A DNA stretch of 25,787 bases from a virus, in IMG/VR virus record IMGVR_UViG_3300044638_001155, positions 1 to 25,787 of that record; one strand, 5' to 3'. Each line of letters starts with the position of its first letter. Position 1 is the stretch's first letter. The notes under the pieces are model-generated. The model saw only the letters and a list, made by a program, of their open reading frames with translations, did no database searches and was not told the origin of the DNA. The position numbers and the translations under genes are program-made. Below, piece after piece: positions 7,554-22,744 of the stretch.

Positions 7554-10045
7554 CAAGAATTTTTATAGAAAATAATGAGTTAGATATAACGCAGCAATTC
7601 AGCCAACAGATTACCTATGCTGTTGATGATTTGCAAAATATGGATAGTAAAGCAACATCGTTTACTAAGACAATCGTTTTGCCCGGTACGGCAAACAATA
7701 ACAGATTATTGGGTAATATATTTGAGTTTGGTAATAGCAATTTTACGATAGATTCACAACCGAATGTAGGGTATAATTTTAACGCATCTAAATCAGCAAA
7801 TGCACGAATAGAAATAGATGGTTTGCCTGTTATGAAAGGAGTTTTAAGATTGCTTGAAATTCTGATTGATGGCGATTATATTGAGTATGAAGTAGCGTTA
7901 TTTGGCGAGCTGGGAGGATTTATTTCTAATATAGGTGCATCTAAATTAACTGATTTAGATTTTAGTGAGTATAATCACACATACAACGTAACTAACATTC
8001 AGGCAAGTTGGAACAATCAGGGAAGCGGTTATTATTACCCTTTGATAGATTACGGCAATACATCGCCAATTAGTAACATTAACTTTTCAAAAAAGAATTT
8101 TTATTTTACTGCATTTAGACCTGCGTTTTTTGTGCGTGAGTATATGGATAAGATAATTAGAAATGCAGGGTATACGTGGGAATCTGATTTTATGGACACC
8201 GATTATTTTAAATCGTTAATCATTCCTAACAATCAATCAAGATTAAAATTTAATAGAGGCACAATCTTTGAAAGCCGTTTACTCGGTAACTACACGCTTA
8301 ACGATACATTAACTCATTCATCTGTTTATACAGATTTATTTACTAACGCATCTAATCAGGTATTTACTTACAATACATCAGTACCATTTACCGGAGCGAT
8401 TAACATCTCATTGCGTGGTACATACAATATAACTAACTCAGATATTAATGATACTCAGTTTAGATATGCGTTTGCAACGATGAGCATTTACAAAAACGGC
8501 TCATTGTTTTATCAGGATCAAAACAAAAGATTTGGAGGATTTGCAACTACATTAGGGATAAGCACACCACCATCATATTCATTTAACTTACGTTGGTTTG
8601 GCGTTCCTATTACGTTTGCATTAAACGATACGTTTGAAATTAAGTTAGAAGTATTTGATACGGATGGAGCGGTAATTAATGTAACACTTTCTAATTCAGG
8701 GATGGGCATCACAACTGAAAACCCTGTTTTGGTATCTGCTCAATATGGTGATGATTTGTTAGTTAATGGTACACTACCTGCTAACATTCTGCAAAAAGAT
8801 TTCTTTACATCCATTTTGAAAATGTTTAACCTAATGGTTACTGAGGATAAGTTTGTAGAAAAGCATTTAATACTCACGCCATACGTTGATTTTTATAATA
8901 CAGATAGAACAACATTTTTAGATTATTCAGATAAGGTTGACAGGTCGCAGATGATAAAGATTAAACCAATGTCTGAGATTAACTCACGATATTACACGTT
9001 TAAATACAAAGCCGATAACGATTTTTACAATGAAGATTATCGTAAAAAATATGCTGAGAATTATGGGGATAGGATTTATGATAATCAGTTAGAGTTTACA
9101 AAAGACACATCAAATACAGAGGTTATTTTTTCTAATTCTATTTTGATAGGGTATAACGATAGAGATAAAGTTTTTCCTGCAATCTATAAGAAAACAAACG
9201 ACACAGAGGAAATGATTGAACATAACATTAGGATTATGTTTACTAAAAAGATAACAGGCAGAATTGAGTGGAAAATTTACAACCAGTTTGATATTGAATT
9301 AGTAAGCGGATTAACTGCCTATGGTTACGCAGGACATTTGGATAACCCTTTTAATTCTTACAATGACCTATGTTTTGGAGTTCCTAAGGAATTGTATTTT
9401 AATCTTACATCAGGGTTATTATCTCGTAACTTATTCAACATATTTTACTCAGGATATTTTGCAGAGATAACAGATAAGGATTCGCGTTTAGTAACGTGTA
9501 AAATGCACTTTAAGCCATCAGATATTTATAATGTAGATTTTGGTAAGTTAATCTATATTGATGGTGTATTATATCGTTTGAATAAGATACAAGATTATTC
9601 AGAGAATGATATAACGAGCGTTGAATTGCTAAGGGTTAATTACTTAGAATATGATGCACCTTATTATGAGCAGTACAATTTAGGAGATGAATTAAATGGA
9701 GGTTACATCGTTTACATTGATGGTAGCGGCAGGCACGGATTGATAGCACCTGATTATAATGATGTTGAGCAGGCGATTTCATTTAATTGGAGCGGAGCAG
9801 TAAATTATTGCGATACATACACAATTGGAGGTTATTCAGATTGGCGAATAGGTACAAAGGATGAAATGTTAGCAATAGATTTAAATCAATCATTTATTCC
9901 AAACTTTGTTCCAAACAACTTTTGGACAGGAACGGAAATTGATTCAACACAAGCATATAAAGTTTCAATGAATGGTAGTGGAACTGGGGAAACAAATGAA
10001 GATAAAACAAACACTTATTTCGCATTACCTATAAAATCCTTCTAA
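7550..10045 (+). CDS. Large tail tip protein with C-terminal DUF1566-like domain
   Basis: An 831-aa structural protein. The N-terminal 140 residues (TRIFIENNELDITQQ to GELGGFISNI) form a recognisable tail-associated opening, followed by long beta-rich regions typical of tip and fibre proteins. Residues about 712-831 form a separate domain: GGYIVYIDGSGRHGLIAP, NWSGAVNYC, GGYSDWRIGTKDEM, NFWTGTE, and a FALP end. This pattern matches DUF1566/C-type-lectin-like domains (GYSDWRLPTKDEL is the usual form), a fold used for surface binding. I infer a role in host recognition at the tail tip. No reverse transcriptase or template repeat is present in the window, so diversification is not supported. Confidence 0.62.
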   Translation: MTRIFIENNELDITQQFSQQITYAVDDLQNMDSKATSFTKTIVLPGTANNNRLLGNIFEFGNSNFTIDSQPNVGYNFNASKSANARIEIDGLPVMKGVLRLLEILIDGDYIEYEVALFGELGGFISNIGASKLTDLDFSEYNHTYNVTNIQASWNNQGSGYYYPLIDYGNTSPISNINFSKKNFYFTAFRPAFFVREYMDKIIRNAGYTWESDFMDTDYFKSLIIPNNQSRLKFNRGTIFESRLLGNYTLNDTLTHSSVYTDLFTNASNQVFTYNTSVPFTGAINISLRGTYNITNSDINDTQFRYAFATMSIYKNGSLFYQDQNKRFGGFATTLGISTPPSYSFNLRWFGVPITFALNDTFEIKLEVFDTDGAVINVTLSNSGMGITTENPVLVSAQYGDDLLVNGTLPANILQKDFFTSILKMFNLMVTEDKFVEKHLILTPYVDFYNTDRTTFLDYSDKVDRSQMIKIKPMSEINSRYYTFKYKADNDFYNEDYRKKYAENYGDRIYDNQLEFTKDTSNTEVIFSNSILIGYNDRDKVFPAIYKKTNDTEEMIEHNIRIMFTKKITGRIEWKIYNQFDIELVSGLTAYGYAGHLDNPFNSYNDLCFGVPKELYFNLTSGLLSRNLFNIFYSGYFAEITDKDSRLVTCKMHFKPSDIYNVDFGKLIYIDGVLYRLNKIQDYSENDITSVELLRVNYLEYDAPYYEQYNLGDELNGGYIVYIDGSGRHGLIAPDYNDVEQAISFNWSGAVNYCDTYTIGGYSDWRIGTKDEMLAIDLNQSFIPNFVPNNFWTGTEIDSTQAYKVSMNGSGTGETNEDKTNTYFALPIKSF

Positions 10046-10476: not shown

Positions 10477-12735
10477 ATGGCAGAAACGCAAGAGGTACAA
10501 ATAAAGGTCAAGGTTGATACAGGAAATTCTACAAAAGAAATCCAACAATTAACCAATGAAGTTAATGATTTAAAAAAAGCATATAGCGAAGCCGCAGAAG
10601 GTAGCGAGGAGCAGGCAGATGCGTTAAAAAAATTAACGACTGCTGAAAATAAACTATCTGATGCGGTTAGTAAAAATGAAAAAGAAACTGAGAGTAATAC
10701 AAAGGCTCAGAAAGAGGCACAAAATCAGGCAAAGAAATCTGAGGGAGGTTTTAAAAATCTCATAAATGTTATTAAGGGTTTAGGTGTTATAGGTTTAGCA
10801 TCAGCAGCATTTGATGTATTTAAGGAATCTCTGATGAAAAATCAGAAGGTTGCAGATGCGGTTAACACGATAATGACTACTATTCAAAACACATTAGGTG
10901 CTTTTATTGAGGTTGTGGTAAATGTGATTGATAAGGTTAGTAAATCATCTAATGGGTTTGATGCGCTCGGTAAGGTTGTAAATGGTTTAATTACTTTATC
11001 AATTACTCCGCTAAAATTAGCGTTTAATGGAATCGCTTTGTTTATTCAAGAGGCGCAGTTAGCTTGGGAGGAATCTTTTTTTGGAGATTCAAACCCTGAA
11101 ACAATAAAATCCTTAAATGCAAGGATAGCAGAAACAAAAAAAGGATTAGAAGATACGGCAGAATCAGCAATCAATGCAGGTAAAGACATTTACAACAATT
11201 TTGGAGAGGCGGTTAGTCAAGTTACCGATGTTGTTACAGGGGTTGTAGATGGTGCATCTAAGATAAGCGTTAAAAACATTTACGAGCAGGCAAAAGCAAC
11301 TACGGCATTAAAAAACACAGCAAAGATTGCAGAGGCGCAATTACAGGGGTTAGTTGAGAAATACGACAGGCAGGCAGAATTGCAAAGGCAAATTAGAGAT
11401 GATGATACCAAAAGTATTGCGGAAAGAATCGCAGCTAATAACAAGTTAGGAGAAATTTTACAGGAACAACAGGCGGCTCAGTTATCATTGGCTAATACAA
11501 GGATCGCAGCGGCACAGGCAGAGTTATCGGCAAATAAAGGGAGCGTTGAATTGCAGGCGGCATTAATTTCAGCACAGAATGAAAGAGCAGGTATCTTAGC
11601 GCAAATTGCAGGTTTAGAATCTGAGCAGAAAGCAAATGCCATTGCACTGGATAAAGAGTTATTAGAACTAAATAAAGCACGTACTGCATCAGAACAGCAA
11701 TTAGCAACAGATAGACAGAAAGCAAATGCGGATGCTATCAAAGATGAGTTACAAAAGAACATCATCCTACAACAGATTAGAGATGATGAGCGCAAAAAAG
11801 AATTAGATAGATTACAAGCAAATATAAATGCAACAGCTGAGGGAACTCAGGCGCGTTTAGATGCAGAGATAGAGTTTAACACAAAAAAACAGGAGTTAGA
11901 TATTGCTGATGATGCAGCAAGGGTTGAACGTCAAAAAATAATTAATCAAAGGGAATTAGATGAAAATAATGCAAGATTAGAAAACGCATTAGCAGAATCT
12001 AATTTAAAAAGGCAACTGATTGAGGCAGAAAAAATATCTGCATTTGATAAAACACAAAAGGTAATAGAATTAGCGAGAGAGGAAAGCCGTGTACAATTAG
12101 AGGCAATTAATTTAAAAAGAGATGCAGAGATATTAGCCGCAGAACAGGCAGGATTATCAACTATTGAGATTCGTAATAAGTATGCAATACAGGCACAAAC
12201 AATAAACGCTCAGTTAGCAAAATCAGAGGCAGACTTAGCAAAGGCGCGAGTAGATGCGCAGGTATCTGCTGCTGATGCAATCGCAGATTCATTAGGCAAA
12301 CTTGCACAATTATTTGGAGAGCAAACGGCAGTAGGAAAATCTTTATCAGTAGCATCTACAACAATATCAACAATAACCTCAGCGCAGAAGGCTTATGAAT
12401 CTGCACAAACATTACCTTTTGGATTAGGTGCAATAATCGGACCGATTAACGCAGGTATTGCAATTGCAACAGGTGTGGCAAACATTAAAAAGATATTAGC
12501 CGTTAAAATACCGGGTACATCATCAGCTGGAGGTGGTGCGAGTTTACCTACAAATCAATCTCAGGCAGGACAAGTACAAGCACCAATAGCACCTCAGGTA
12601 GGTTCTACTTTAATCAATCAGGCACAGGTTAATCAAATAGGCTCAGCAGCCGCGAGGGCATATGTTGTTGAATCCGATGTTAGTGGAAATCAGGAACGCA
12701 TACAAAGAATAAACAGAGCAGCACGTATATCATAA
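10477..12735 (+). CDS. Tape measure protein (752 aa)
   Basis: The N-terminus (VQIKVKVDTGNSTKEIQQL, TNEVNDLKKAY) and the long run of Ala/Gln/Lys/Glu heptads through residues about 270-620 are characteristic of tape measure proteins, which set tail length. A hydrophobic segment, LINVIKGLGVIGLASAAF, lies near residues 95-112, with another Ile/Ala/Gly-rich stretch near 660 (FGLGAIIGPINAGIAIATG). Both are typical of the membrane-active parts ejected into the host. At roughly 1.5 angstrom per residue the tail would be around 110 nm; that figure is inference. No lytic transglycosylase or peptidase motif is seen. Confidence 0.88.
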   Translation: MAETQEVQIKVKVDTGNSTKEIQQLTNEVNDLKKAYSEAAEGSEEQADALKKLTTAENKLSDAVSKNEKETESNTKAQKEAQNQAKKSEGGFKNLINVIKGLGVIGLASAAFDVFKESLMKNQKVADAVNTIMTTIQNTLGAFIEVVVNVIDKVSKSSNGFDALGKVVNGLITLSITPLKLAFNGIALFIQEAQLAWEESFFGDSNPETIKSLNARIAETKKGLEDTAESAINAGKDIYNNFGEAVSQVTDVVTGVVDGASKISVKNIYEQAKATTALKNTAKIAEAQLQGLVEKYDRQAELQRQIRDDDTKSIAERIAANNKLGEILQEQQAAQLSLANTRIAAAQAELSANKGSVELQAALISAQNERAGILAQIAGLESEQKANAIALDKELLELNKARTASEQQLATDRQKANADAIKDELQKNIILQQIRDDERKKELDRLQANINATAEGTQARLDAEIEFNTKKQELDIADDAARVERQKIINQRELDENNARLENALAESNLKRQLIEAEKISAFDKTQKVIELAREESRVQLEAINLKRDAEILAAEQAGLSTIEIRNKYAIQAQTINAQLAKSEADLAKARVDAQVSAADAIADSLGKLAQLFGEQTAVGKSLSVASTTISTITSAQKAYESAQTLPFGLGAIIGPINAGIAIATGVANIKKILAVKIPGTSSAGGGASLPTNQSQAGQVQAPIAPQVGSTLINQAQVNQIGSAAARAYVVESDVSGNQERIQRINRAARIS

Positions 12736-12748
12736 AACTTTACAAAAA

Positions 12749-13792
12749 ATGAAACTACCAATTTACGAATTAAAAATCAGTGAGAATCTTAACGATGAGG
12801 CAGAGGTTTCTTACATCGCATTAGTGGATGAGCCTGCCATAAAAAAAGATTTTCTCGCATTCAAAAACGAATTTATTGAGCCATCAAAAGGCGAAAGGGA
12901 AAATGATTTTATTCCTCGTTGCATTGATTATGTAATTAATGAGGGAAAGGATAACGAACAGGCAGCAGCGATTTGTTATTCTATTTGGAAAGAACATTTT
13001 TTTGATGAACAACAATTTGAAACTTATAACGATTACCCTGAGCAGGCAAAAGAAAATGCAAAGATTGCTTTGCGATATGCTGAGGAAAATGGATGGGGTG
13101 ATTGTGGCACATCTGTGGGAAAAGCGAGAGCCAATCAACTAGCAAATGGAGAAAATATAAGTCGTGATACAATCGCAAGAATGGCAGGTTTTGAAAGACA
13201 CAGGCAGAACTCTGATAAAGAGTTAGGCGATGGTTGCGGTCGTTTGATGTGGTTAGCTTGGGGTGGCGATGCAGGGATAGAATGGGCGCAAAGAAAATTA
13301 GAACAGATTGATAAAATGAGAAAGCAAGATTTTAAAATAGTAAACGAGGAAAAGCGAATAATATCCGGTCCTTTGATGTTGGCAGATGAGTTGATATATC
13401 GCAATAACGATAAAATGGGTGAACACTACGTTAAATTCTCAGCCGATACAATCAAACAGATAGCTATAAAGTTTGCAAAAAAGAAATACCAAAACCATGT
13501 TAATCTAATGCACGATCCTGAGCAAAAGGTAAAAGGCGTTACAATGTTTGAATCTTGGTTAACCGATAACGAGCGTGGCATAATGCCAATGAAAGGTTTT
13601 GAAGGTGTAGCAGATGGCAGTTGGTTTGGCTCATTCTATGTAGAGAATGATAAAGTTTGGCAGCAAGTTAAGGCAGGAGATTTTAGAGGGTTTTCAGTTG
13701 AGGGAATGTTTGACTATGAGCAACCTTTAACGGCTGAGGAAAACGCACTTAAAAAAATATCTGAACTTTTAAACGTAATTATTCACGACTAA
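12749..13792 (+). CDS. XkdF-type prohead protease with two inserted domains
   Basis: The C-terminal half carries the XkdF/S78-like protease pattern. It has FKIVNEEKRIISGPLMLADE, HYVKFSADTIKQIA, NHVNLMHDP (candidate catalytic His) and FRGFSVEGMF (candidate catalytic Ser). Two extra segments lie between the N-terminal strand (ISENLNDEAEVSYIALVDEP) and the protease core. The first is a short FIPRCIDYVINEG to AAAICYSIWKE module (about residues 50-85). The second is a longer module with SVGKARANQLANGENIS and CGRLMWLAWGGDAGIEWA (about residues 105-190), known as an add-on in phage head maturation proteins. It lies directly upstream of the scaffold and major capsid candidates, the expected place for a maturation protease. 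Confidence 0.75.
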   Translation: MKLPIYELKISENLNDEAEVSYIALVDEPAIKKDFLAFKNEFIEPSKGERENDFIPRCIDYVINEGKDNEQAAAICYSIWKEHFFDEQQFETYNDYPEQAKENAKIALRYAEENGWGDCGTSVGKARANQLANGENISRDTIARMAGFERHRQNSDKELGDGCGRLMWLAWGGDAGIEWAQRKLEQIDKMRKQDFKIVNEEKRIISGPLMLADELIYRNNDKMGEHYVKFSADTIKQIAIKFAKKKYQNHVNLMHDPEQKVKGVTMFESWLTDNERGIMPMKGFEGVADGSWFGSFYVENDKVWQQVKAGDFRGFSVEGMFDYEQPLTAEENALKKISELLNVIIHD

Positions 13793-13806
13793 ATATATCT
13801 ATAATT

Positions 13807-14370
13807 ATGAAAGCAACAGAAATCATTGAAAAATTAAGACTAACCTTTAATGAGTTAGTAAACACTCCAAAACAGGATCAAGTAGTAAAGATGATTGAGG
13901 CAACTTTGATGGATGGCACAAAAGTAGAAGTTACCGAGCTGGCAATCGGTGGTATCGTAACTATTGATGGTATGCCTGCACCTGCAGGAGAACATACTTT
14001 AAGCGATGGTACTATGATTGTATTAGGTGACAATGGAGCGATAATGGAAATCAAACCTGCTGAATCAGAGGTTGAAGTTGAGATTGAGGCAAAGAAAAAA
14101 GATGAAGATATGACTGCTAAATTCTCAGCATTTGAATCTACTACAAACGAAAAGTTCGCATCTTACGAATCTAAGTTTGCATCTTACGAACAGAAATTTG
14201 CTGATTATGAAACAAGACTAAACAAAGCAACTCAGGTAATTGAGGGTTTGTTAAATCTTACTCAGACATTAGCAGAGGCACCAACAGGAGTAGCAGATGC
14301 AGCAATTAAATCAGAATCAAAATTTTCAAACAATAAAGAAGGATTTAAATACGATATCCTATTTTCTTAA
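13807..14370 (+). CDS. Scaffolding protein candidate (187 aa)
   Basis: Located between the protease and the major capsid gene, the standard scaffold position. Residues 30-85 form a compact strand-rich unit (ATLMDGTKVEV, IGGIVTIDGMPAPAGEHTL, IVLGDNGAIMEI). After an acidic stretch (ESEVEVEIEAKKKDED) comes a predicted coiled coil with three near-exact heptads built on KFASYE. The long charged helix is typical of scaffolds that are removed or cleaved during maturation. A decoration or capsid-fibre role for the strand-rich part is possible. Confidence 0.55.
   Translation: MKATEIIEKLRLTFNELVNTPKQDQVVKMIEATLMDGTKVEVTELAIGGIVTIDGMPAPAGEHTLSDGTMIVLGDNGAIMEIKPAESEVEVEIEAKKKDEDMTAKFSAFESTTNEKFASYESKFASYEQKFADYETRLNKATQVIEGLLNLTQTLAEAPTGVADAAIKSESKFSNNKEGFKYDILFS
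14152..14214 (+). repeat. Three 21-bp tandem repeats encoding heptads
   Basis: Three consecutive 21-bp units encode KFASYES, KFASYEQ and KFADYET. The first two differ at only a few bases and the third is more diverged. A preceding partial unit (AKFSAFES) suggests the coiled coil grew by heptad duplication. Confidence 0.85.
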
Positions 14371-14389
14371 AAACAAAAATTAAATTACA

Positions 14390-15349
14390 ATGGCATTATC
14401 ATTAGGATCATTAGCAGATTATACTAAACAACTCGTTAAACCCCTGTTGACCTCAGCCGTAATCGGTGCAAGAACTCAGCAGTTAATTATGGATGGCGGT
14501 GTTGTTATTCCAGGCGCAAAAGGACCAGTTGCAATCCCTTTAATGGATACCGATGCATTTTTTCAAACAGATGCGTGCGGTTACAACCCATCAGGAACTA
14601 CAACCTTTACTCAGCGTACAATTACACCGGGTAAAATTATGATTAGCGAAACAATTTGCCCTAAGAACTTTGAGGCGAAATTTACTGCTGAGGCTTTGAA
14701 AGCTGGTAGCACTTACACAGATTTCGGTAACGCTGATTTCTTGGCAGCTTATCTAGAAAAGAAAAACGCACGTATTGCTGCGCAACTTGAAACTGCAATT
14801 TGGCAAGGTACAACAGCTTCAGGCGATGGTAACTTAAACAAATTTGATGGTTTGATTTCTTTGATTGATGGCGGTTCTCCTGTAGATGCTAACGTATCAG
14901 GTTTTACAGGTGTTGCAACAATCAGCACAATCACTCAATCTAACGTAATCGCAGCAACTGAGGGTATCTACAAAGCAATTCCTGCGGCTGTAATGGCAAA
15001 AGGAGATGTAAAGATTATGTGCGGTTATGATTGGTATCGTTTGCTTATCCTTGCTTACAGAGCGTTGAATTTGTTTAGCTACAATCCACAGGATGTAAAT
15101 GCTCAATCATTTATCCTACCTGGTACAAACATTGAGATTGTTCCTGTTAACGGATTGAATGGTACTGGAGATGCTTACGCGCTAAGTGTATCTAACATTG
15201 CGATGGCAGTAGATTTGGAAGGAGAAGAGCAAAATTATCGCCTTTGGTATTCAGAGGATAACGATGAAATCAGAAGTAAAGTTTCTTTCAAAATTGGTGT
15301 TAACGTAGCGTTTACAAACGAATGCGTTAAGTTCAAAGCAGCTATCTAA
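14390..15349 (+). CDS. Major capsid protein
   Basis: A 319-aa protein downstream of the protease and scaffold and upstream of a strong terminator. Its opening (ALSLGSLADYTKQLVKPLLTSAV) and end (KVSFKIGVNVAFTNECVKF) match what I recall of major capsid proteins of Bacteroidota siphophages. The interior has the alternating strand and helix pattern of the HK97 fold, including ADFLAAYLEKKNARIAAQLE, a spine-helix candidate. Codon use is enriched in GCA, GGT and CGT compared with neighbours, as expected for a very highly expressed gene. Homologs form the icosahedral shell. No separate N-terminal delta domain is visible, which fits use of a separate scaffold. Confidence 0.82.
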   Translation: MALSLGSLADYTKQLVKPLLTSAVIGARTQQLIMDGGVVIPGAKGPVAIPLMDTDAFFQTDACGYNPSGTTTFTQRTITPGKIMISETICPKNFEAKFTAEALKAGSTYTDFGNADFLAAYLEKKNARIAAQLETAIWQGTTASGDGNLNKFDGLISLIDGGSPVDANVSGFTGVATISTITQSNVIAATEGIYKAIPAAVMAKGDVKIMCGYDWYRLLILAYRALNLFSYNPQDVNAQSFILPGTNIEIVPVNGLNGTGDAYALSVSNIAMAVDLEGEEQNYRLWYSEDNDEIRSKVSFKIGVNVAFTNECVKFKAAI

Positions 15350-15372
15350 TAAAATTCTATAACTGAACAAAA

Positions 15373-15402
15373 GGGTGGTGAAATAAACACCACCTTTTTT
15401 TT
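15373..15402 (+). terminator. Intrinsic terminator after the major capsid gene
   Basis: GGTGGTG (15374-15380) pairs perfectly with CACCACC (15388-15394) around an AAATAAA loop, followed by eight T. It lies 24 bases after the capsid stop and 16 bases before the next start. Confidence 0.92.
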
Positions 15403-15418
15403 CTTAAATCTAAATAAT

Positions 15419-15958
15419 ATGAGTTGTGTAGTTACATCAGGATATGCGATAGAATGCCGTGATTCAGTTGGCGGTGTTGAGGTCGTTTATCTTATAGAAA
15501 ATTCTGCGTTGTATGACGCATCAGGCAATAGCCGTGTAACATCTGCATCAGGTGTTGTATCTGCTATAACAAAAAATTCAGGCAAACGCTTTTGGAAGTT
15601 TGAAGTTCCTCGCGCGACTGCATCAGCAAATAATGGTATTACTTCATCTATTGAAAATGGAACTTTCTTTTTTACCCATCAGGTAATTTTTCCTATCAAT
15701 AGCCGTAGCGCAGACGTTAGAAATGTTGTTACAACACTTGCAAAAAATCGTCTTACATTTGTACTTAAAGAAGGAGACGGAACGTATCGCATGTATGGCA
15801 AAGAGTTTGGTTTACAACTTGAAACAACAGAGGCAGGTAGTGGAACTGGATTAGCAGATCGGAACGGTTACCTTCTTACCTTTTCAAGTCAAGAGCGTGA
15901 AGATTTCTTAGTAGTTCCTGCAAACATTGCAGCAGCGCTAGAAACACCGGGTACTTAA
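15419..15958 (+). CDS. Major tail (tube) protein candidate (179 aa)
   Basis: Starts MSCVVTSGYAIECRDSVGG and shows strand-rich segments with GKRFWKFEVPR, FFFTHQVIFPI and RLTFVLKEGDGTYRMYG. It closes with GLADRNGYLLTFSSQERE, a 'G-DRNGY-LTF' end that I recall from tail-tube proteins of related phages. It is a single gene bracketed by two strong terminators, the arrangement expected for a very abundant virion protein. Homologs stack into the tail tube around the tape measure. It could alternatively be a head decoration protein because it sits among head genes, but the sequence pattern favours the tube. Confidence 0.62.
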   Translation: MSCVVTSGYAIECRDSVGGVEVVYLIENSALYDASGNSRVTSASGVVSAITKNSGKRFWKFEVPRATASANNGITSSIENGTFFFTHQVIFPINSRSADVRNVVTTLAKNRLTFVLKEGDGTYRMYGKEFGLQLETTEAGSGTGLADRNGYLLTFSSQEREDFLVVPANIAAALETPGT

Positions 15959-15981
15959 TACTCTTACTCAAAATAAAAACG

Positions 15982-16014
15982 CCTCCGACCGATAATAAAA
16001 GTCGGAGGTTTTTT
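15982..16014 (+). terminator. Intrinsic terminator after the tail-tube candidate
   Basis: CCTCCGAC (15982-15989) pairs perfectly with GTCGGAGG (16001-16008) around an 11-base loop, followed by six T. The next start codon is at 16018, three bases after the T run, so there is no room for a new promoter downstream of it. Confidence 0.93.
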
Positions 16015-16017
16015 AAT

Positions 16018-16392
16018 ATGATAACAATCGCAAAAGGTCAAACAACACCTATTTACATTACGGCAAAAGAGAATTTAGATAATCCTGATAATTACGTTGG
16101 GATTTTCTTTACAAATAGAATAACTCAGGAGGTTGTATCTTTTATGTTTAATGATATCAGCACAACAGATAGGTATATGAAAATGAGTTTAGTTGTTAAT
16201 ACTTATTTTGCAGATTCTGAAACAGGGTTTTGGACTTACAAAGCATATCAAACACCAACGAATAATATCAACACAATAGATACAGATTCTATACCAGTTG
16301 AAACAGGATTGATGTATCTTAGTGCTGCGAGTGAATTTGAGCCAACAAAATATACAGGACAAAACAACACATTTGTAACATACAATGGATAA
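16018..16392 (+). CDS. Small structural protein upstream of portal (124 aa)
   Basis: A strand-rich protein (MITIAKGQTTPIYITAKENL, NYVGIFFTNRIT) with FWTYKAYQTP and an ETGLMYL end. I recall related sequences beside portal or tail-tube genes in Bacteroidota phages, without a known function. It overlaps the portal start by 8 bases. Its start codon directly follows a terminator T run, so it must be translated from read-through transcripts. It may be a minor head or tail protein. Confidence 0.55.
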   Translation: MITIAKGQTTPIYITAKENLDNPDNYVGIFFTNRITQEVVSFMFNDISTTDRYMKMSLVVNTYFADSETGFWTYKAYQTPTNNINTIDTDSIPVETGLMYLSAASEFEPTKYTGQNNTFVTYNG

Positions 16393-18370
16393 TTACAAAC
16401 ACATAGTAATCAAATTTGACCACGCTCAGCAGCCAAAGTTTGAGGAAAAAAAAGGTAAGTATTCTTATATTGAATTTGGTAAGAATAACGATTATCCTAA
16501 TTATCTGTTATCTCTATACAACGAATCACCAAAGCACGGAGCGATAGTTAAAAGTAAATGCACATACATTTACGGCAAAGGTTTTGAGGTTGCAGGTACT
16601 GCAAATAGCAGAGGCGAAACGTGGAATCAGATTGTAAAGAAATGTATTAAAGATGATGAACTTTACAGGGGTTATTATATGCAGGTTATTTGGAATCGCA
16701 TAGGGCAGATTGCAGAGGTTTACCACATTGATTTTGCAAAGGTTAGAGTTAACAAAGATTTGAGTTTGTATTACGTTAAAAACGATTGGAGCGATTTTAA
16801 GGAAAAACCTCGCGAATATCCTGCGTTTAATATGAATGATAAGTTTGGCTCACAAATTTATTTTAATCGCGAATACAATCCATTGAGTGAGGTTTACCCA
16901 TTGCCTTCATACTATCAAGGATTAAATTACATTGAATCAGATATAAAGGTTAGCAGACACATTCTCGGTAACGCTAATCAAGGCTTTGTGGGTTCAACGT
17001 TAATTAATCTTAATAATGGGGATCCTATTAATGAGGAGCATAAAGGTGAGGTTGAGAGAGGTTTATTAAAGAAGTTTACAGGCGATGAAGGAAAGCGTTT
17101 AGTTATAATGTTCAATAAGAGCAAAGATAACGCTGCTGAGATTGTTAATCTCGGTAATACAATGCTCACTAAAGAGGATTTTACAAACATAAATAACCTA
17201 ATCACGAATGAGATAATGATTTGCCATCAGGTGGTAAGTCCTACATTGTTCGGTGTTAAGGTTGAAGGGCAGTTAGGAAGTAGGAACGAAATTCGTGAGG
17301 CATACGAGGTATTTAATAATGTTTACGTTCAGGAAAGGCAATCAGAGTATAATGATGTTTTTACTCAGTTTAGAAATTTAAAAGGCGAGCTGGGAGAGTT
17401 TTATTTACAACCAGTTGAGCCGTTAAAGTTTGAATTTAGCGAGGCAATTATGGCTGCTAATTTAACACAGAATGAGATTAGGGAATTGATGGGGCGCGAG
17501 CCGTTAAATGCAGGGCAGGTTACATCGGATGGTGCGGTTGCAGTTGCTGAGGAAATACCTGTACAAAATGTAGAGGTTAAATCTAATGATGCGTTAAGAA
17601 ATCTAACAGGTAGACAATATCAGAATGTTATGCGTATTGTTAGACAGTTCGGTAACGGCAAACTAAGCAAAGCGCAGGCATCGTTAATGTTAAAAAATGG
17701 ATTTGGTTTTTCTGATTCTGATATAGATACTTTTTTAGGGATAGATGATAATCCTTTAACTGAGGATGAGGTGCAAAAGTTTAGTTTAACAGAGGATGAG
17801 CGTTTGATTTTGGAGTTTGAAAACTGCGGAGAGGAAAAAAAAAATTATAGTGAGATAGGCCGCGAAAGTTATCGCGAATACTTTGCAGATAATTTGAACC
17901 AAGCACAGGCAGATATTTTGACATTGATAACGAAGGATAAAAATATAACCCCTATCATTATCGCAAGAACTTTGAAATTAGATACTGATTTGGTAATTGA
18001 TATTATTAACGATTTCCTTGAAAGAAATATAATAAAGGCAATACCATCTAAAATAAATGCTGAACCTGTTTATGAGGTGTTAAAACCTGCATCAGAATTA
18101 CCGGGTAAGAAAAGCAAAGTTACAACCTTAGTTATTCGTTATTCATACGAAGGGCCTGAGGATAGCAGAAATAGACCATTCTGCGCTAAGTTGTTAGAGT
18201 TGAGTAAACGTAAGACGTGGAGCAGGAGCGATATAGAAAGCATATCAGAGCGTGTTGGATATAGTGTTTGGGATCGTAGAGGCGGATGGTATACACAACC
18301 AAACGGAGAGGCACGAGAATATTGCAGGCATCGTTGGACATCTAAATTAATGAAAAAGAAAGATGAGTAA
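16385..18370 (+). CDS. Portal protein with C-terminal winged-helix and MuF-like regions
   Basis: Residues 1 to about 380 form the portal. They include FGKNNDYPNYLLSLYNESPKHGAIV, KSKCTYIYGKGF (entry of the wing), SDIKVSRHILGNANQGF, and VVSPTLFGV followed by GSRNEIREAYEVF, all typical of HK97-type portals. After a linker, ALRNLTGRQYQNVMRIV and GKLSKAQASLML form a helical clip or C-terminal extension. Residues about 515-570 (ITPIIIARTLKL, VIDIINDFLERNIIKAI) look like a winged helix. Residues about 585-655 have RNRPFCAKLLELS, SRSDIESIS, GGWYTQ and CRHRW, the Cys/His signature of MuF-like minor head domains. At 661 aa it is far longer than ordinary portals (about 400-500 aa), so this is a fusion. 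It acts as the DNA channel at the capsid vertex. Confidence 0.8.
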   Translation: MDNYKHIVIKFDHAQQPKFEEKKGKYSYIEFGKNNDYPNYLLSLYNESPKHGAIVKSKCTYIYGKGFEVAGTANSRGETWNQIVKKCIKDDELYRGYYMQVIWNRIGQIAEVYHIDFAKVRVNKDLSLYYVKNDWSDFKEKPREYPAFNMNDKFGSQIYFNREYNPLSEVYPLPSYYQGLNYIESDIKVSRHILGNANQGFVGSTLINLNNGDPINEEHKGEVERGLLKKFTGDEGKRLVIMFNKSKDNAAEIVNLGNTMLTKEDFTNINNLITNEIMICHQVVSPTLFGVKVEGQLGSRNEIREAYEVFNNVYVQERQSEYNDVFTQFRNLKGELGEFYLQPVEPLKFEFSEAIMAANLTQNEIRELMGREPLNAGQVTSDGAVAVAEEIPVQNVEVKSNDALRNLTGRQYQNVMRIVRQFGNGKLSKAQASLMLKNGFGFSDSDIDTFLGIDDNPLTEDEVQKFSLTEDERLILEFENCGEEKKNYSEIGRESYREYFADNLNQAQADILTLITKDKNITPIIIARTLKLDTDLVIDIINDFLERNIIKAIPSKINAEPVYEVLKPASELPGKKSKVTTLVIRYSYEGPEDSRNRPFCAKLLELSKRKTWSRSDIESISERVGYSVWDRRGGWYTQPNGEAREYCRHRWTSKLMKKKDE

Positions 18371-19154
18371 AAATATCCTATTTATTACGGAGCAAACTTT
18401 TAAGGAAAGGACTGGCGCATCTAACCAGATAGATGGTAAACAGATTTTCCCAATGGTTAAGGTAGCAGGTGATATGTATATTCAGCCTGCATTAGGTAGT
18501 AAATTATACACACGTTTACAGAGTGGTGTAGTTGCTAATAATTTAAATGCAAATGAGGTTATTTTGCTTAATGACTATATTACCGATTGTTTGATTTGGT
18601 ACACGATGAGTATGTTACCGATGACAATGGGATTTCAATTATTTAGCAAAGGTTTTCTACAAAAGACATCAGAGGAATCAGCACCACCGAGCAGGGCGGA
18701 TTTAGAATTGATTGAGCAAAAATATCTGAGTTTAGCAGAGTTTTATAAGACAAGATTAATAAAGTATTTGCAGGAAAACTATACACTCTATTTTGAATAC
18801 CTGAATTATGGTAGCGGATTAGATATTATTTTTCCTGAGGAAAAAGCGTATAGCTGCCCGATATATTTAGGCAACGCTTACATACCTGAAACGAGCAAAT
18901 ACGTTAATTCATCATCTGGTTACTCTGCTCCTGATATTGTTTACTATACTGCGGTAGGTGGCGAATCTACTTTTAGCCTTTCAACCTTAGCAGGTAGAAC
19001 AACATTGTTTGCAAGTCGTGGCGGATTAGCAAAAGGAATCACACAAACGGCAACAGCAGATACCGGGTATTTACAAATCGTTGGAGGGGTTGTTACTTTA
19101 CCCACAGGCGATGTTGCAATGGCAGGGGAACTATTTACATTTTTATACAGATAA
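18363..19154 (+). CDS. Head-tail connector (adaptor) protein, DUF6712-like
   Basis: Opens with ITEQTFKERTGASNQIDGKQ, then VAGDMYIQPALGSKLYTRLQ, a pattern I associate with DUF6712-type adaptor proteins of Bacteroidota phages. The following helices (EVILLNDYITDCLIWYTMSML, YLSLAEFYKTRLIKYLQENY) fit the helical bundle of gp6/gp15-type connectors. The C-terminal third (from about residue 180) is strand-rich and Thr/Gly-rich (STFSLSTLAGRTTLF), an extension not usual for simple connectors. The start overlaps the portal stop by 8 bases, supporting a joint role at the portal vertex. Confidence 0.65.
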   Translation: MSKNILFITEQTFKERTGASNQIDGKQIFPMVKVAGDMYIQPALGSKLYTRLQSGVVANNLNANEVILLNDYITDCLIWYTMSMLPMTMGFQLFSKGFLQKTSEESAPPSRADLELIEQKYLSLAEFYKTRLIKYLQENYTLYFEYLNYGSGLDIIFPEEKAYSCPIYLGNAYIPETSKYVNSSSGYSAPDIVYYTAVGGESTFSLSTLAGRTTLFASRGGLAKGITQTATADTGYLQIVGGVVTLPTGDVAMAGELFTFLYR

Positions 19155-19157
19155 AAT

Positions 19158-19316
19158 ATGAGTAAAGGTTATAAAAAGGAATGGATAGAAAAAGTAAAGC
19201 AAAAGTTTAATGACATACAACCAAATAATAACAAAGATAACCGACCTGCTAACAAGCAATCCGATAATAAAATCGGTAAGGTTTGCAACTCCAACGGAGT
19301 GGATAGGATACGTTAG
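19158..19316 (+). CDS. Possible 52-aa ORF overlapping the tail-terminator gene
   Basis: ATG 19158, four bases after the connector stop, opens a 52-codon frame beginning MSKGYKKEWIEKVKQKFNDI and continuing with an Asn/Lys-rich tail. The first 17 codons fill the otherwise empty 55 bases before the next gene; the remaining 107 bases overlap it in another frame. The N-terminus looks like an amphipathic helix. It may be a small real gene or a leader ORF helping translation of the next gene. The long overlap makes it doubtful. Confidence 0.3.
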   Translation: MSKGYKKEWIEKVKQKFNDIQPNNNKDNRPANKQSDNKIGKVCNSNGVDRIR

Positions 19317-19638
19317 TATGCCGCAGTTTCCTGTTGCATTATTTTTTATAAATAATGGGCAGTTAAACGCAGGGCGTGATTTAGTTTACACGATCCAATT
19401 TTGGTATTTAGATAAGAGCGGTGTTGAGGGCGAATTTGAGCAGGAGGTTATTAACGACCAACATCAGATAGCGAATGATATTGTGATGGCACTCAGACAA
19501 GATAGAACGATTAGCGTTGATACTAATATTCGTTGGGATGCAATCTCAGAAAAGTTTGAGGATTATTTGAGTGGAGTAACTTTGACATTTAACATTTCAG
19601 CAACTGGACAATTTAATAACTGCGATTTCCCAATATGA
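19210..19638 (+). CDS. Tail terminator/completion protein candidate (142 aa)
   Basis: Residues 1-20 form a helix (MTYNQIITKITDLLTSNPII), then strands with VRFATPTEWIG, PQFPVALFFIN and LVYTIQFWYLDK, a helix (INDQHQIANDIVMALRQD), and a final strand ending FNNCDFPI. This alpha-beta order matches tail terminator (lambda gpU-like) proteins and the NC-D-x-P end is one I recall in Bacteroidota phages. It follows the connector and would cap the tail before joining to the head. Its last 4 bases overlap the start of the tail fibre gene (ATGA). Confidence 0.5.
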   Translation: MTYNQIITKITDLLTSNPIIKSVRFATPTEWIGYVSMPQFPVALFFINNGQLNAGRDLVYTIQFWYLDKSGVEGEFEQEVINDQHQIANDIVMALRQDRTISVDTNIRWDAISEKFEDYLSGVTLTFNISATGQFNNCDFPI

Positions 19639-21101
19639 GAAAACTAATAACGATAATTTTAATTTTGGTTTGTAGCAAATCTTTTGCACAGGTTTACCAA
19701 TTGATGCCTCAGTATGGTTATCAGGCAAACAGGATGGTATTTGATTCTACTTTGCAAATCCCTACTACGTGCGGTGTACCTACGTTAAAGAGTGTGCAGT
19801 TTGTAACAAAGAGGGCAGCGATTGCATTTGATTCGTGCAACAATAGATTTTACCAATACAATCCTAAAACATTGGCGTGGTCGGAGGTAAGCGGAGGCGG
19901 TGGCAGTACAGATACTACATCGCTCAGTAATAGGATCAACTTAAAAATTGATTCATTAAAACGCAGGAGTGATTCTGTTTTTGCATATCGTAATGGTAAT
20001 GAGGTTTTTCAGTTTAAAGATTCTGTAGGTAGTGCATCTGCAGTAGCCAACGACACGGCAAAAGTAGTTATTGCCAAAGTGCATAACGCCACTGGAACAA
20101 CATTGCAGCGTGGTGAAGTAGTTTATTTATCAGGTGCTAATGGCGATGTAGCGAGCGTTAAAAGAGCGAATAATAAGCAAGACAGCACATCATCAAAAAC
20201 ATTCGGGATAGTGCGCAGGGATATTGCCGCAGGCGATACAGGATATATTACAACACAGGGGCAGATTGAAAAGTTAAATCTTGGAGCATTTACCGCAGGC
20301 GATATTGTTTATTTAGATTCTATTGATGGGCAATTTACAAAAGTTGTTCCTGTCGCACCTTATCACTCTGTATTTATTGGAATAGTTGAAAGGGCAAACA
20401 ATGGTAATGGCTTAATGTATGTTAAGCCGCAGAATGGCTATGAATTAGATGAGCTACACAATGTGCAAATAAACGGCAAAGTAAATAATCAAATACTCGT
20501 TTATTCAGATACTCAAAAGGTATGGAAAAATCGCAGCGTTTATTCGGTTGTAGATACGACCTCACTCAGCAGTAGAATCAATACAAAACTAAACACATCA
20601 GATACATCAGTTTTTCAACGCAAACAAATCGCTGCAAATTCAATAATGGCTAACAATACTGCGAGTGTAGCAAATGCAACCGCTGCAACATTTAAGCAAT
20701 TTGGAAATCAAACCTATTCGGATTCAATTACTATAACAGGTACCGTAAATCCAAGTGGAGCAATTAACCATTCTTTTAGATGGTCGCAGATTGGAAATTT
20801 AGTTACACTGCACATTACATTGACTTATGCAACAAACGGCTCGTTATCACAGGTTGCGATGGAATTGCCTGATGGTTTACCATTGCCTATTTTGCCAACA
20901 GGTTTAACCGCTAACAATGATATAATTTGTTATGGCACAGGTTTTATGGTATCAACAACAACAGGTGTAAGTGCCGTATTTTCTAAAGTGTTTTTAAGAC
21001 AAAATACAGGTTTGACAAATGACTATGAAATTGTAATAAATCAAGCAACTAATTCAACATACAGAATCATTAATACAACAATTCAATACTTTGCACAATG
21101 A
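19635..21101 (+). CDS. Tail fibre-like protein with Sec signal peptide (488 aa)
   Basis: The N-terminus MRKLITIILILVCSKSFAQ is a textbook Sec signal peptide (basic start, hydrophobic core, S-F-A cleavage site), unusual for a virion protein. The mature part begins YQLMPQYGYQANRM. Residues about 143-275 form a repeated strand module (GTTLQRGEVVYLSGANGDV, TFGIVRRDIAAGDTGYITTQG, AGDIVYLDSIDGQF, GLMYVKPQNGYELDELHNV). I recall this module from tail fibres and spikes. DTTSLSNRIN occurs at residue 93 and DTTSLSSRIN at 307. The C-terminal 100 residues (SFRWSQIGNLVTLHITLTY onward) form a beta-rich head. It likely binds the host, or is exported and attached late. Confidence 0.6.
   Translation: MRKLITIILILVCSKSFAQVYQLMPQYGYQANRMVFDSTLQIPTTCGVPTLKSVQFVTKRAAIAFDSCNNRFYQYNPKTLAWSEVSGGGGSTDTTSLSNRINLKIDSLKRRSDSVFAYRNGNEVFQFKDSVGSASAVANDTAKVVIAKVHNATGTTLQRGEVVYLSGANGDVASVKRANNKQDSTSSKTFGIVRRDIAAGDTGYITTQGQIEKLNLGAFTAGDIVYLDSIDGQFTKVVPVAPYHSVFIGIVERANNGNGLMYVKPQNGYELDELHNVQINGKVNNQILVYSDTQKVWKNRSVYSVVDTTSLSSRINTKLNTSDTSVFQRKQIAANSIMANNTASVANATAATFKQFGNQTYSDSITITGTVNPSGAINHSFRWSQIGNLVTLHITLTYATNGSLSQVAMELPDGLPLPILPTGLTANNDIICYGTGFMVSTTTGVSAVFSKVFLRQNTGLTNDYEIVINQATNSTYRIINTTIQYFAQ
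19911..20588 (+). repeat. Pair of DTTSLS-RIN repeats in the fibre gene
   Basis: Two 36-base segments, at 19911-19946 and 20553-20588, encode DTTSLSNRINLK and DTTSLSSRINTK, 214 codons apart. They flank the central strand module and probably form short trimeric coiled-coil or hinge elements. The bases have diverged at third positions, so the duplication is old. Confidence 0.7.
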
Positions 21102-21293: not shown

Positions 21294-21503
21294 ATGACAA
21301 CGGCAATGGTAACAAATGTTTTAATCGGAGTGGTAATAGCACTGATCGGTTTTGTGAGTAAAGAATTAGTAAAGCGATTAGATAGATTTGAAAAGATAGT
21401 GCAGGGAATCCTGATGAGTGATGTTGCAGTTAGTAAAGATTTAGAGCAATTAAAAGAGGATGTAAAGGATCACGAACAACGTATTTCTCAACTTGAAAAA
21501 TAG
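21294..21503 (+). CDS. XhlA-like membrane protein with coiled coil (69 aa)
   Basis: One N-terminal membrane segment (NVLIGVVIALIGFVS, residues 8-22) is followed by a basic/charged helix and a heptad-rich tail (LEQLKEDVKDHEQRISQLEK). In topology it resembles XhlA-type proteins that act with holins, though XhlA has its membrane segment at the other end. It opens the lysis block four bases after the preceding stop. A holin-partner or antiholin role is inferred from context. Confidence 0.5.
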   Translation: MTTAMVTNVLIGVVIALIGFVSKELVKRLDRFEKIVQGILMSDVAVSKDLEQLKEDVKDHEQRISQLEK

Positions 21504-21509
21504 ACAATT

Positions 21510-21737
21510 ATGAACAGCACGTTTCTAAACTTGAATGTTAACGATTTCATCAAAGGTTTGGCAGTAGCCGTATTAACCTCAGTTTTGACAATCGTTTACA
21601 ACACATTGCAAACAGGCAGTTTGGCATTTGACTGGACAGCCATCGCGACCACAGCACTAACAGCAACAATCGCGTACCTTATGAAAAACCTTCTCACAAA
21701 CACAGAGGGCAAAATGCTTAAAAAGGATGTGAAGTAA
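21510..21737 (+). CDS. Holin candidate (75 aa)
   Basis: Two hydrophobic segments (FIKGLAVAVLTSVLTIVY, residues 13-30; AIATTALTATIAYLMKNLL, residues about 44-62) are separated by a short polar turn (QTGSLAFDW). A basic tail (KMLKKDVK) follows. Small size, two membrane helices, a charged C-terminus and its place ahead of the spanin and endolysin fit a class II holin that forms lesions in the inner membrane. The N-terminal MNSTFLNLNVNDFIKGL pattern is one I recall from annotated holins of Bacteroidota phages. Confidence 0.68.
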   Translation: MNSTFLNLNVNDFIKGLAVAVLTSVLTIVYNTLQTGSLAFDWTAIATTALTATIAYLMKNLLTNTEGKMLKKDVK

Positions 21738-21773: not shown

Positions 21774-22295
21774 ATGCGTTACCTATTTTTAATCATATTA
21801 TTATCAGGATGCTATACCGCTCAGAAAGCGGATAGGCAAATGAATAAAGCGTATGTGTATCACAAAGGATTAACGGCACAAAAGTTTAGCGAGTGGTTTC
21901 CCTGTGAAACATTGCAGATTGATTCATCAGAAAAGATTGAATACATATACAAACGCGACACGTTATTAGAGTACATTATAAAGGAAACTGAGCCGATAAA
22001 TATAATTCTTAGAGATACATTCATTAGATATTATAACGGCTGCGATTCGCTTAAAAAAGAGTTAGGGAGGGCAAAGCGATTGATAGACCATTTAACAAAT
22101 GAGATACAATTAAAGCCGATAGTTTATTATAAAACAATCGTAGATTCTGCACGTAATGTATCATTACAGAATCAATTGAATCAGGCTAATAGTGAATTAA
22201 AGAAACGCAATAAAAATTATGTTATTTCGTTATGGTGGATTATTGGCTTAATAATTGCACTTTTATTATCAATCTTATTAAACTTTAAAAAATGA
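21774..22295 (+). CDS. Unimolecular spanin (u-spanin) candidate (173 aa)
   Basis: A GTG at 21747 lies within the terminator hairpin; ATG 21774 is preferred because it gives MRYLFLIILLSGC, a lipoprotein signal with the lipobox Cys at residue 13. The other end has a membrane segment, SLWWIIGLIIALLLSILL, near residues 150-168, with a basic tail. An outer-membrane lipid anchor plus a C-terminal inner-membrane helix is the topology of phage T1 gp11-type u-spanins, which fuse outer and inner membranes at the end of lysis. The middle is strand-rich (EKIEYIYKRDTLLEYIIKETE, with IILRDTFIRYY) then heptad-like (LQNQLNQANSELKKRN). Position between holin and endolysin supports this. Topology, not sequence similarity, is the basis. 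Confidence 0.7.
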   Translation: MRYLFLIILLSGCYTAQKADRQMNKAYVYHKGLTAQKFSEWFPCETLQIDSSEKIEYIYKRDTLLEYIIKETEPINIILRDTFIRYYNGCDSLKKELGRAKRLIDHLTNEIQLKPIVYYKTIVDSARNVSLQNQLNQANSELKKRNKNYVISLWWIIGLIIALLLSILLNFKK

Positions 22296-22744
22296 AAGCT
22301 TCACAGAAATGCGTTGATTTAATTAAAGAGTTTGAGGGGTTTTTTGATAAAGCATATATCTGCCCGGCAGGAGTTCCTACAATTGGATTTGGCAGCACAA
22401 TGTGGAACGACGGCAGAAAAGTAAAGATAGGCGAAAAGATTACTAAGGAAGGTGCTGAGATTCTTTTGCACTGGGAGTTAAATAATAAAAGCATTGCCTT
22501 AATAGATTTAAATGTTAATCAGAATCAGGCAGATGCGTTATTATCGTTTATTTATAATTTAGGCATTGGAGCGTTTAACAAATCCACACTAAGAAAAAAA
22601 GTAAAATTAAATCCAAACGATCCTACAATTCGCGATGAGTTTATGAAATGGAATAAGGCACGGGTTGCAGGTAAGTTAGTTGAGTTGAAAGGATTAACAC
22701 GCAGAAGGGTAGCAGAATCAAATCTATACTATGATAATAACTGA
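22292..22744 (+). CDS. Endolysin, GH24 muramidase
   Basis: A 150-aa lysozyme. KEFEGFF carries the catalytic Glu15, YICPAG supplies Cys24 and GVPTIGFGST gives Thr30. The spacing 15-24-30 equals the E-D-T spacing of T4 lysozyme (11-20-26), with Cys replacing Asp as in P1 Lyz-type enzymes. ALLSFIYNLGIGAFNKSTLRKK and the final LKGLTRRRVAESNLY are standard family motifs. It cuts the glycan chains of peptidoglycan. There is no N-terminal membrane or signal-anchor segment, so it should stay in the cytoplasm until the holin opens the membrane. It overlaps the spanin stop (ATGA) and the next gene by 14 bases. Confidence 0.92.
   Translation: MKASQKCVDLIKEFEGFFDKAYICPAGVPTIGFGSTMWNDGRKVKIGEKITKEGAEILLHWELNNKSIALIDLNVNQNQADALLSFIYNLGIGAFNKSTLRKKVKLNPNDPTIRDEFMKWNKARVAGKLVELKGLTRRRVAESNLYYDNN

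Follow-up and report, generated by a model that had tools for sequence, protein, structure and literature searches.

Organization of the fibre locus

The DNA stretch analyzed here, hereafter the window, is the complete 25,787-nt (25.8-kb) virus record IMGVR_UViG_3300044638_001155 (positions 1 to 25,787). It contains genes for a terminase, a tape-measure protein, a protease, a capsid protein (assigned by position), a portal and a DUF6712 protein. The DUF6712 gene is followed, in order, by a 142-aa gene, the fibre ORF, small genes, a lipoprotein gene and the gene for a lysozyme-type endolysin. The ATG of the fibre ORF and the stop codon of the preceding gene (19210-19638) share an ATGA overlap. 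The features of this region are the following:

18363..19154, + strand, DUF6712 protein used as synteny anchor (family match E 7e-19)
19210..19638, + strand, 142-aa gene between DUF6712 and the fibre; tail-terminator-like by position (putative role), without a family match
19635..21101, + strand, predicted Sec-exported tail-fibre-like protein of 488 aa (sequence, relatives, fold matches, synteny)
19635..19688, + strand, signal peptide, residues 1-18; predicted SPase I cut before Q19 (CAG at 19689-19691)
19689..19895, + strand, mature head domain, residues 19-87 (~69 residues), the most conserved part, ending in a beta hairpin (AIAFDSCNNRFYQYNP..W)
19770..19772, + strand, codon of Cys46 (mature C28), candidate disulphide partner
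19836..19838, + strand, codon of Cys68 (mature C50), candidate disulphide partner
19911..20060, + strand, shaft-like stretch with the motif DTTSLSNRIN (from sequence; putative shaft role)
20061..20441, + strand, domain resembling decoration proteins and head-fibre bases, PF09956 Phage_cement_2 (residues 189-252; 28.4 bits, cut-off 24)
20553..20624, + strand, second shaft motif, DTTSLSSRIN (from sequence)
20661..21098, + strand, C-terminal domain resembling receptor-binding heads, residues 343-488, exchanged among relatives (fold matches)
21294..21737, + strand, two small proteins with a hydrophobic segment, holin-like by position (putative role)
21774..22295, + strand, lipoprotein (lipobox LLSG before C), spanin-like by position (putative role)
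22292..22744, + strand, endolysin, PF00959 Phage_lysozyme

In relatives of this locus, lipoprotein calls were recurrent close to the endolysin.

The gene order elsewhere in the window is unusual, with the tape measure upstream of the protease, the putative major capsid protein and the portal (10477-18370). Upstream of the tape-measure gene lies the gene of a large protein with a C-terminal Lcl_C domain (7550-10045; PF07603, residues 743-825), to which the signal rule described below assigned no signal and which may be another receptor-binding protein, assembled in the conventional way. A 72-aa lipoprotein (9-227; LLAS before C) with no Pfam match is encoded at the left end, and two genes at 617-1775 resemble, by eye, those of glycosyltransferase-type and FkbM methyltransferase-type proteins. 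The presence of DUF6712 relatives in two Chitinophaga genomes points, indirectly, to a Bacteroidota host; the same family search also rang in Bacteroides ihuae, one of 14 controls.

The fibre carries a predicted Q-rule signal

The N-terminus of the fibre (MRKLIT...) shows the three parts of a Sec signal, namely positive charges at R2 and K3, a hydrophobic run, and S-F-A ahead of Q. The predicted Sec/SPase I signal is MRKLITIILILVCSKSFA followed by Q; the signal string reported initially took in Q19, whereas the predicted cut falls after A18, so that Q is the first mature residue. With its positive n-region, hydrophobic core, small residues at -3 and -1 and Gln at +1 (Q19), the protein has the properties of a Q-rule SPase I substrate as judged by a home-made rule. 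According to the available text of the respective papers, Q at +1 is known as the "Bacteroidetes Q-rule" (PMC5837995), about 71% of SPase I substrates of Bacteroidetes expose Gln (PMC10653852), and periplasmic cyclisation turns the exposed Gln into pyroglutamate (PMC10653852, PMC5837995). The substrates described in those portions share with the fibre a tripartite signal, small -3 and -1 residues, Gln at +1 and a Bacteroidota host. Unlike the fibre, they are host proteins, and phages appear there in one remark, that P. gingivalis phages adopted the rule (PMC10653852).

All signal calls were made with this home-made rule, which grants a bonus for Q at +1; SPase I calls ending at Q are denoted SPI-Q. 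In control runs, none of 137 spurious antisense ORFs was called SPI-Q and 10 received another signal call, and 74 lambda genes gave one false SPI-Q call. The rule erred on phi19:1 gp101 and Nekkels 53, to both of which it gave a lipoprotein call at residue 12, and it overlooked phi39:1 gp25 and the fibre of locus L190; by eye, all four have a small residue followed by Q. A non-Q signal call on phi39:1 gp17, an MS/MS protein, is probably false.

The possibility that the fibre is a lipoprotein was considered and rejected. Lipoboxes follow the pattern [LVI][ASTVI][GAS]C; in the fibre, C13 is preceded by I-L-V, which places V at -1, and the rule calls an SPase I signal. A search of 10 proteins for a type IX C-terminal sorting domain gave no NCBIfam match at E 0.01. 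The Sec signal predicted on the fibre is well supported.

Signals are conserved at loci selected by synteny

To select loci by synteny and not by the fibre, the upstream DUF6712 gene was used as bait and the next large gene was read. Among the best 80 of 164 DUF6712 relatives, five loci (L131, L136, L139, L151 and L156) were left out because the contig ends ahead of the gene, and all 75 readable next genes encoded a signal ending at Q. The rule recognised 73 of these from the full-length gene and L143 from the 5' piece of its split ORF; L165 was recognised by eye. In L143 (7270-8836), the fibre ORF is divided into a 76-aa piece with the signal and a 453-aa piece, through decay or sequencing error. 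A more distant DUF6712 bait yielded 18 loci of a lineage whose fibres have a different head; L189 was left out for the same reason, and a signal ending at Q was found in 17/17 readable genes (16 SPI-Q by rule, L190 by eye). In both sets of DUF6712 loci, many entries represent one contig listed under several ids. The two Chitinophaga loci have different-looking proteins at the fibre position, and both were called SPI-Q (2/2). One of these, in L196 (7037-9004; Chitinophaga sp. sic0106), contains a GDSL lipase/acylhydrolase domain and is a candidate polysaccharide deacetylase.

The original prediction of a cleavable signal on a fibre-like protein was thus borne out by the tripartite N-terminus and its conservation in homologs. 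The survey of homologous fibres that it had proposed as a check found signals at all loci examined in both lineages (75/75 and 17/17), and homologs without any signal, which it had named as contrary evidence, were not encountered among them. The observation is confirmed, and stands on stronger ground than could have been known from the window.

Further Q-rule proteins were seen beside some fibres. In L050 (8690-9571), L064 (9643-10512) and L077 (3668-4621) a second one is encoded directly 3' of the fibre; two of the three match PF09206 and the third is fibre-like by eye. In L187, the Q-rule fibre is succeeded by another Q-rule protein, of 110 aa, 2821 bp beyond the DUF6712 match. A search for relatives of the fibre head in a genome collection of 84,980 species gave 24 pattern matches, of which tblastn confirmed none.

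The signal is under selection

The signals were compared in 82 loci, comprising the best 80 of 121 relatives plus L002 and L005, many of them the same contigs under different ids. With L041 dropped because of a contig edge, 81 complete N-termini remained, representing 52 distinct signals of 18-23 residues. Every distinct signal had K or R early, a small residue at -3 and at -1, and A, G, S or T at -1 (52/52 in each case). Gln was present at +1 in 81/81 N-termini, a position located by a Q-requiring pattern that every row matched, and the rule, which favours Q, placed the cut before this residue in 80/81. The mature protein began with QVYQ in 76/81, and Q19 was invariant in a 15-row alignment.

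Conservation changes sharply at this boundary. In 49 loci with 18-residue signals, amino acid identity was 37% for the signal versus 79% for mature residues 5-28 (81% for residues 1-28); with only the loci starting in QVYQ, the values were 39% for the signal and 84% for the mature part. Among 46 of these loci, 33% of single-base codon changes within the signal were synonymous and 94% of those within the head, against 23% and 22%, respectively, expected in the absence of selection. Simulated copies of the signal bearing 20 random substitutions kept an SPI-Q call in 0.6% of cases, versus 45/46 real loci, the relatives not being independent; the 46 include L001, which is identical to the window, and the others differ from its signal at a mean of 22.4 of 54 nt (range 1-32). 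The hydrophobic letters of the signal thus drift while its end stays fixed, as expected of a cleaved signal. These sequence comparisons indicate that the signal is under selection and that its boundary at Q is conserved.

In a tally of 778 genes from these loci, SPI-Q was called for 41/41 fibres, and there were five other such calls: three on adhesin-like genes beside the fibre, one on the L005 fibre and one in L062, probably a miscalled lipoprotein.

Domains of the mature protein

Relatives of the fibre have a mostly constant N-terminal head followed by mosaic C-terminal parts. Most keep the head and exchange what follows; L005 shows the reverse, with the later parts kept and a different head. 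A constant N-terminus with exchangeable C-terminal parts is the usual plan of virion fibres, and the window protein combines this arrangement with a C-terminal head of the receptor-binding type.

The structural model of the fibre had a mean pLDDT of 60.2, with good confidence for residues 361-488, where ten-residue means were 82-91 with one exception of 65, and poor or moderate confidence elsewhere. The head modelled alone reached a modest mean pLDDT of 67, and its best fold match (Z 2.5) was uninformative. The Phage_cement_2 region, modelled with low to moderate confidence, matched 8qsy_MJ (Z 8.7, 1.3 A, 55 aligned) and the base of phi29 gp8.5, 6qyy (Z 6.1, 2.2 A, 60 aligned). The match to this head decoration family, above the cut-off for PF09956, concerns one domain only. 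Similar stretches occur in proteins whose annotation is tail fibre or tail protein, and the homologs of the fibre in cultured phages, five records, match in this middle domain only. For residues 343-488 the best match was reovirus sigmaC (2bt8; Z 9.1, 3.3 A, 115 aligned), and the head of a lactococcal phage also matched (2fsd; Z 7.4, 3.3 A, 101 aligned), both middling. In the model, this domain thus appears to have a fold like that of reovirus sigma, adenovirus fibre knobs and lactococcal phage heads, from which it differs by a low sequence identity (7-14% among the rows listed) and middling Z scores; a fold shared with receptor-binding heads shows no function.

Among 62 distinct heads matching the search pattern, 58 had both cysteines, four had neither and none had a single one. 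This pairing fits a C46-C68 disulphide, which would need an oxidising compartment; the absence of both may go back to one loss event.

Q-rule signals on annotated virion proteins of Cellulophaga phages

The premise that export contradicts a role in the virion was examined in cultured phages. In the available part of their deposited annotations, MS/MS proteomics notes accompany, among others, the tail-end proteins phi10:1 gp091-094, phi18:3 gp085-087, phi19:1 gp101-104 and phi39:1 gp25-26. All except phi19:1 gp104, which has K at +1, bear a Q-rule signal. Ten of these twelve were SPI-Q by rule, and phi19:1 gp101 and phi39:1 gp25 were recognised by eye; the twelve are not independent, several being mutual homologs, and represent about eight different signal-plus-head starts. 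By the annotation notes as available, some of them cut short, Q-rule proteins made up 4/12 of the MS/MS-supported proteins of phi10:1, 2/14 in phi39:1, 3/3 in a 10-kb stretch of phi18:3 and 3/14 in a 32-kb stretch of phi19:1. The premise is weakened, since four cultured Cellulophaga phages have signal-bearing proteins annotated by MS/MS as virion proteins. The MS/MS peptides may, however, come from periplasmic protein stuck to particles.

Other phages do without such signals. Among the MS/MS-supported proteins counted in the available annotations of phi18:1 (nine) and phi46:1 (seven), none was SPI-Q by rule; no signal is present on the phi46:1 tail fibre, which has an MS/MS annotation, or on the tail-fibre and tail proteins encoded by phi18:1. 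In a sample of 14 cultured phages, taken without prior knowledge of their signals and several only in part, SPI-Q calls fell on structural or lyase genes in phi10:1, phi13:2, phi19:1 and phi39:1. There was one further short SPI-Q call each in phi10:1 and phi13:2, one short SPI-Q ORF each in phi38:1 and FCL-2, and no SPI-Q gene by rule in phi18:1, phi12:1, phi46:1, 11b, B124-14, RAP44, P12002L or P12024S. Q-rule signals on fibres are not universal among Bacteroidota phages. The Q-rule protein of FCL-2 (L104, 45363-45806; 147 aa, starting QVGIATTTPTETLDV) has, by eye, a start like that of a fibre and lies outside the structural operon.

The first 42 residues of phi10:1 gp094, comprising the signal and 23 mature residues, recur at 88-93% identity in phi13:2, Nekkels_1 and phi18:3, where the lyases or tail proteins that carry them are otherwise different. 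The converse is seen with phi10:1 gp092, whose C-terminal part follows different signal-plus-head modules in other phages. A docking module at the mature N-terminus would be expected to give this pattern of shared starts and swapped C-termini. The Cellulophaga tail-end proteins (phi10:1 gp091-095, phi18:3 gp085-087, phi19:1 gp101-104, phi39:1 gp25-26) resemble the window fibre in combining a Q-rule signal (phi19:1 gp104 excepted) with a fibre or lyase body, and several have, by eye, a hairpin-like stretch near the mature N-terminus. They differ in the sequence of the head: comparison with the window head gave an hhalign probability of 33% over 28 columns and weak hmmsearch scores, and homology was not demonstrable.

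A proposed route to the particle

We consider it somewhat more probable than the opposite (roughly 0.55) that the window protein is a virion adhesion fibre that reaches the particle via the periplasm. The infected Bacteroidota cell would export the fibre by Sec, SPase I would cut it before Q19, and glutaminyl cyclase would cap the new end as pyroglutamate. Folding of the head domain would be extracytoplasmic, perhaps with formation of a disulphide between C46 and C68, and the fibre would trimerise and be held in the periplasm. Particles built in the cytoplasm would meet the waiting fibres once the downstream lysis genes open the envelope; the conserved mature N-terminal head would then dock on the tail, and the exchangeable C-terminal head would bind the next host. 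Taken together, export with cleavage and Q-capping, folding and storage in the periplasm, and docking at lysis would account for the signal, for its position next to the lysis genes, for the paired cysteines and for the detection of such proteins in virions. By analogy with the Cellulophaga proteins, we infer that the window fibre is present in the virion; its docking would be late, at or after lysis. Assembly of tailed phages is, in textbook accounts, cytoplasmic until lysis, and free T4 fibres and P22 tailspikes are able to attach to particles in vitro. The paradox originally seen in an exported fibre is probably explained by another route of assembly, and not by a fibre that is no virion part.

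The main competing explanation, which we regard as unlikely, is that of a secreted decoy or enzyme. In line with the original proposal, the fibre would not be part of the virion but would stay in the periplasm or be released, occupying receptors on the infected cell, on debris or on kin, or it would act as a free polysaccharide-binding protein. The same signal evidence fits this explanation, and some neighbouring or syntenic Q-rule proteins are enzyme- or lectin-like (PF09206 in two; the GDSL lipase domain in Chitinophaga L196). In the available text of PMC10367356, Matrishin et al. describe Q-rule proteins of Porphyromonas gingivalis phages, from five genes and of unknown function, and suggest that they may modify the host outer membrane. 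Like the fibre, those proteins are phage-encoded and have Q-rule signals; as far as that text describes them, the window fibre differs in its fibre architecture, family-wide conservation and link to the virion in other phages. Against a non-virion role, four phages have comparable proteins with a virion annotation, and the constant N-terminus with exchangeable C-terminus follows the plan of virion fibres. Moreover, neither a lipobox nor, among NCBIfam families, a type IX sorting domain was recognised, which leaves the protein no apparent way across the outer membrane ahead of lysis. Of the initial suggestion of receptor-blocking release or display, the export signal stands, and nothing specific was found for the remainder; the interpretation first given to the signal is partly supported.

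The other initial suggestion was that the hydrophobic N-terminus acts as an assembly anchor; it would then stay uncleaved, as it would if it anchored the fibre in a membrane. Hydrophobicity by itself could allow either role, yet the reading is improbable and disfavoured because the cleavage-site residues (small at -3 and -1, Q at +1) are kept while the hydrophobic core drifts. The uniformity of -3 and -1 in the 52 distinct signals, the conservation step at Q with Q19 invariant in the alignment, and a signal length of merely 18-23 residues all speak for cleavage.

About as improbable is the existence of two pools of fibre, one non-exported and destined for the virion, through an internal start or folding in the cytosol, and the other exported. 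Met24, just past the signal, could provide such a start, and the idea is otherwise unsupported. A start at Met24 would lose the conserved QVYQ, and some relatives, such as L005 and L187, have no methionine there. Finally, a mis-called start or a chance hydrophobic stretch without export, for which nothing spoke, is very unlikely, to the point of being negligible, given the simulation, the conservation in 75/75, 17/17 and 2/2 loci and the antisense-ORF control.

Relation to described systems and implications

A comparable architecture has been described outside phages: in the available text of PMC10769870, the mosaic adhesive trimer proteins of Bdellovibrio are tail-fibre-like adhesins with a signal peptide and then a conserved N-terminal domain. 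They are likened to the fibre by description, and differ in being bacterial surface proteins and not phage-encoded virion parts. Phage DGR proteins, in the available part of PMC6199706, are without signal peptides, which counts against the export explanation. The North Sea phage paper (PMC8776804) does not use the term 'signal peptide' in its main text (0 occurrences), and in a literature search with most subscription journals outside its reach, no paper was recognised that joins signal peptides with virion fibres of Bacteroidota phages.

A broader proposal, which we put forward tentatively and at slightly less than even odds, is that many tailed phages of Bacteroidota have a second, extracytoplasmic assembly line, in which fibres and depolymerases would be exported by Sec, capped as pyroglutamate, oxidised, stored in the periplasm and docked only during lysis. 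If this is true, the adsorption apparatus would mature outside the compartment where heads and tails are built, adhesins would be kept from cytoplasmic particles, and surplus fibre would be left to mask receptors on debris. Assembly would acquire a further dependence on the host, namely on Sec, SPase I and glutaminyl cyclase. A function would be assigned to phage Q-rule proteins described as unknown in the available text of PMC10367356 and PMC10653852, and annotators would have an easy way to mark out the adhesins and depolymerases of phages of Bacteroidota. A selected export signal on virion adhesins would alter the textbook account of assembly for phages of an ecologically dominant phylum.
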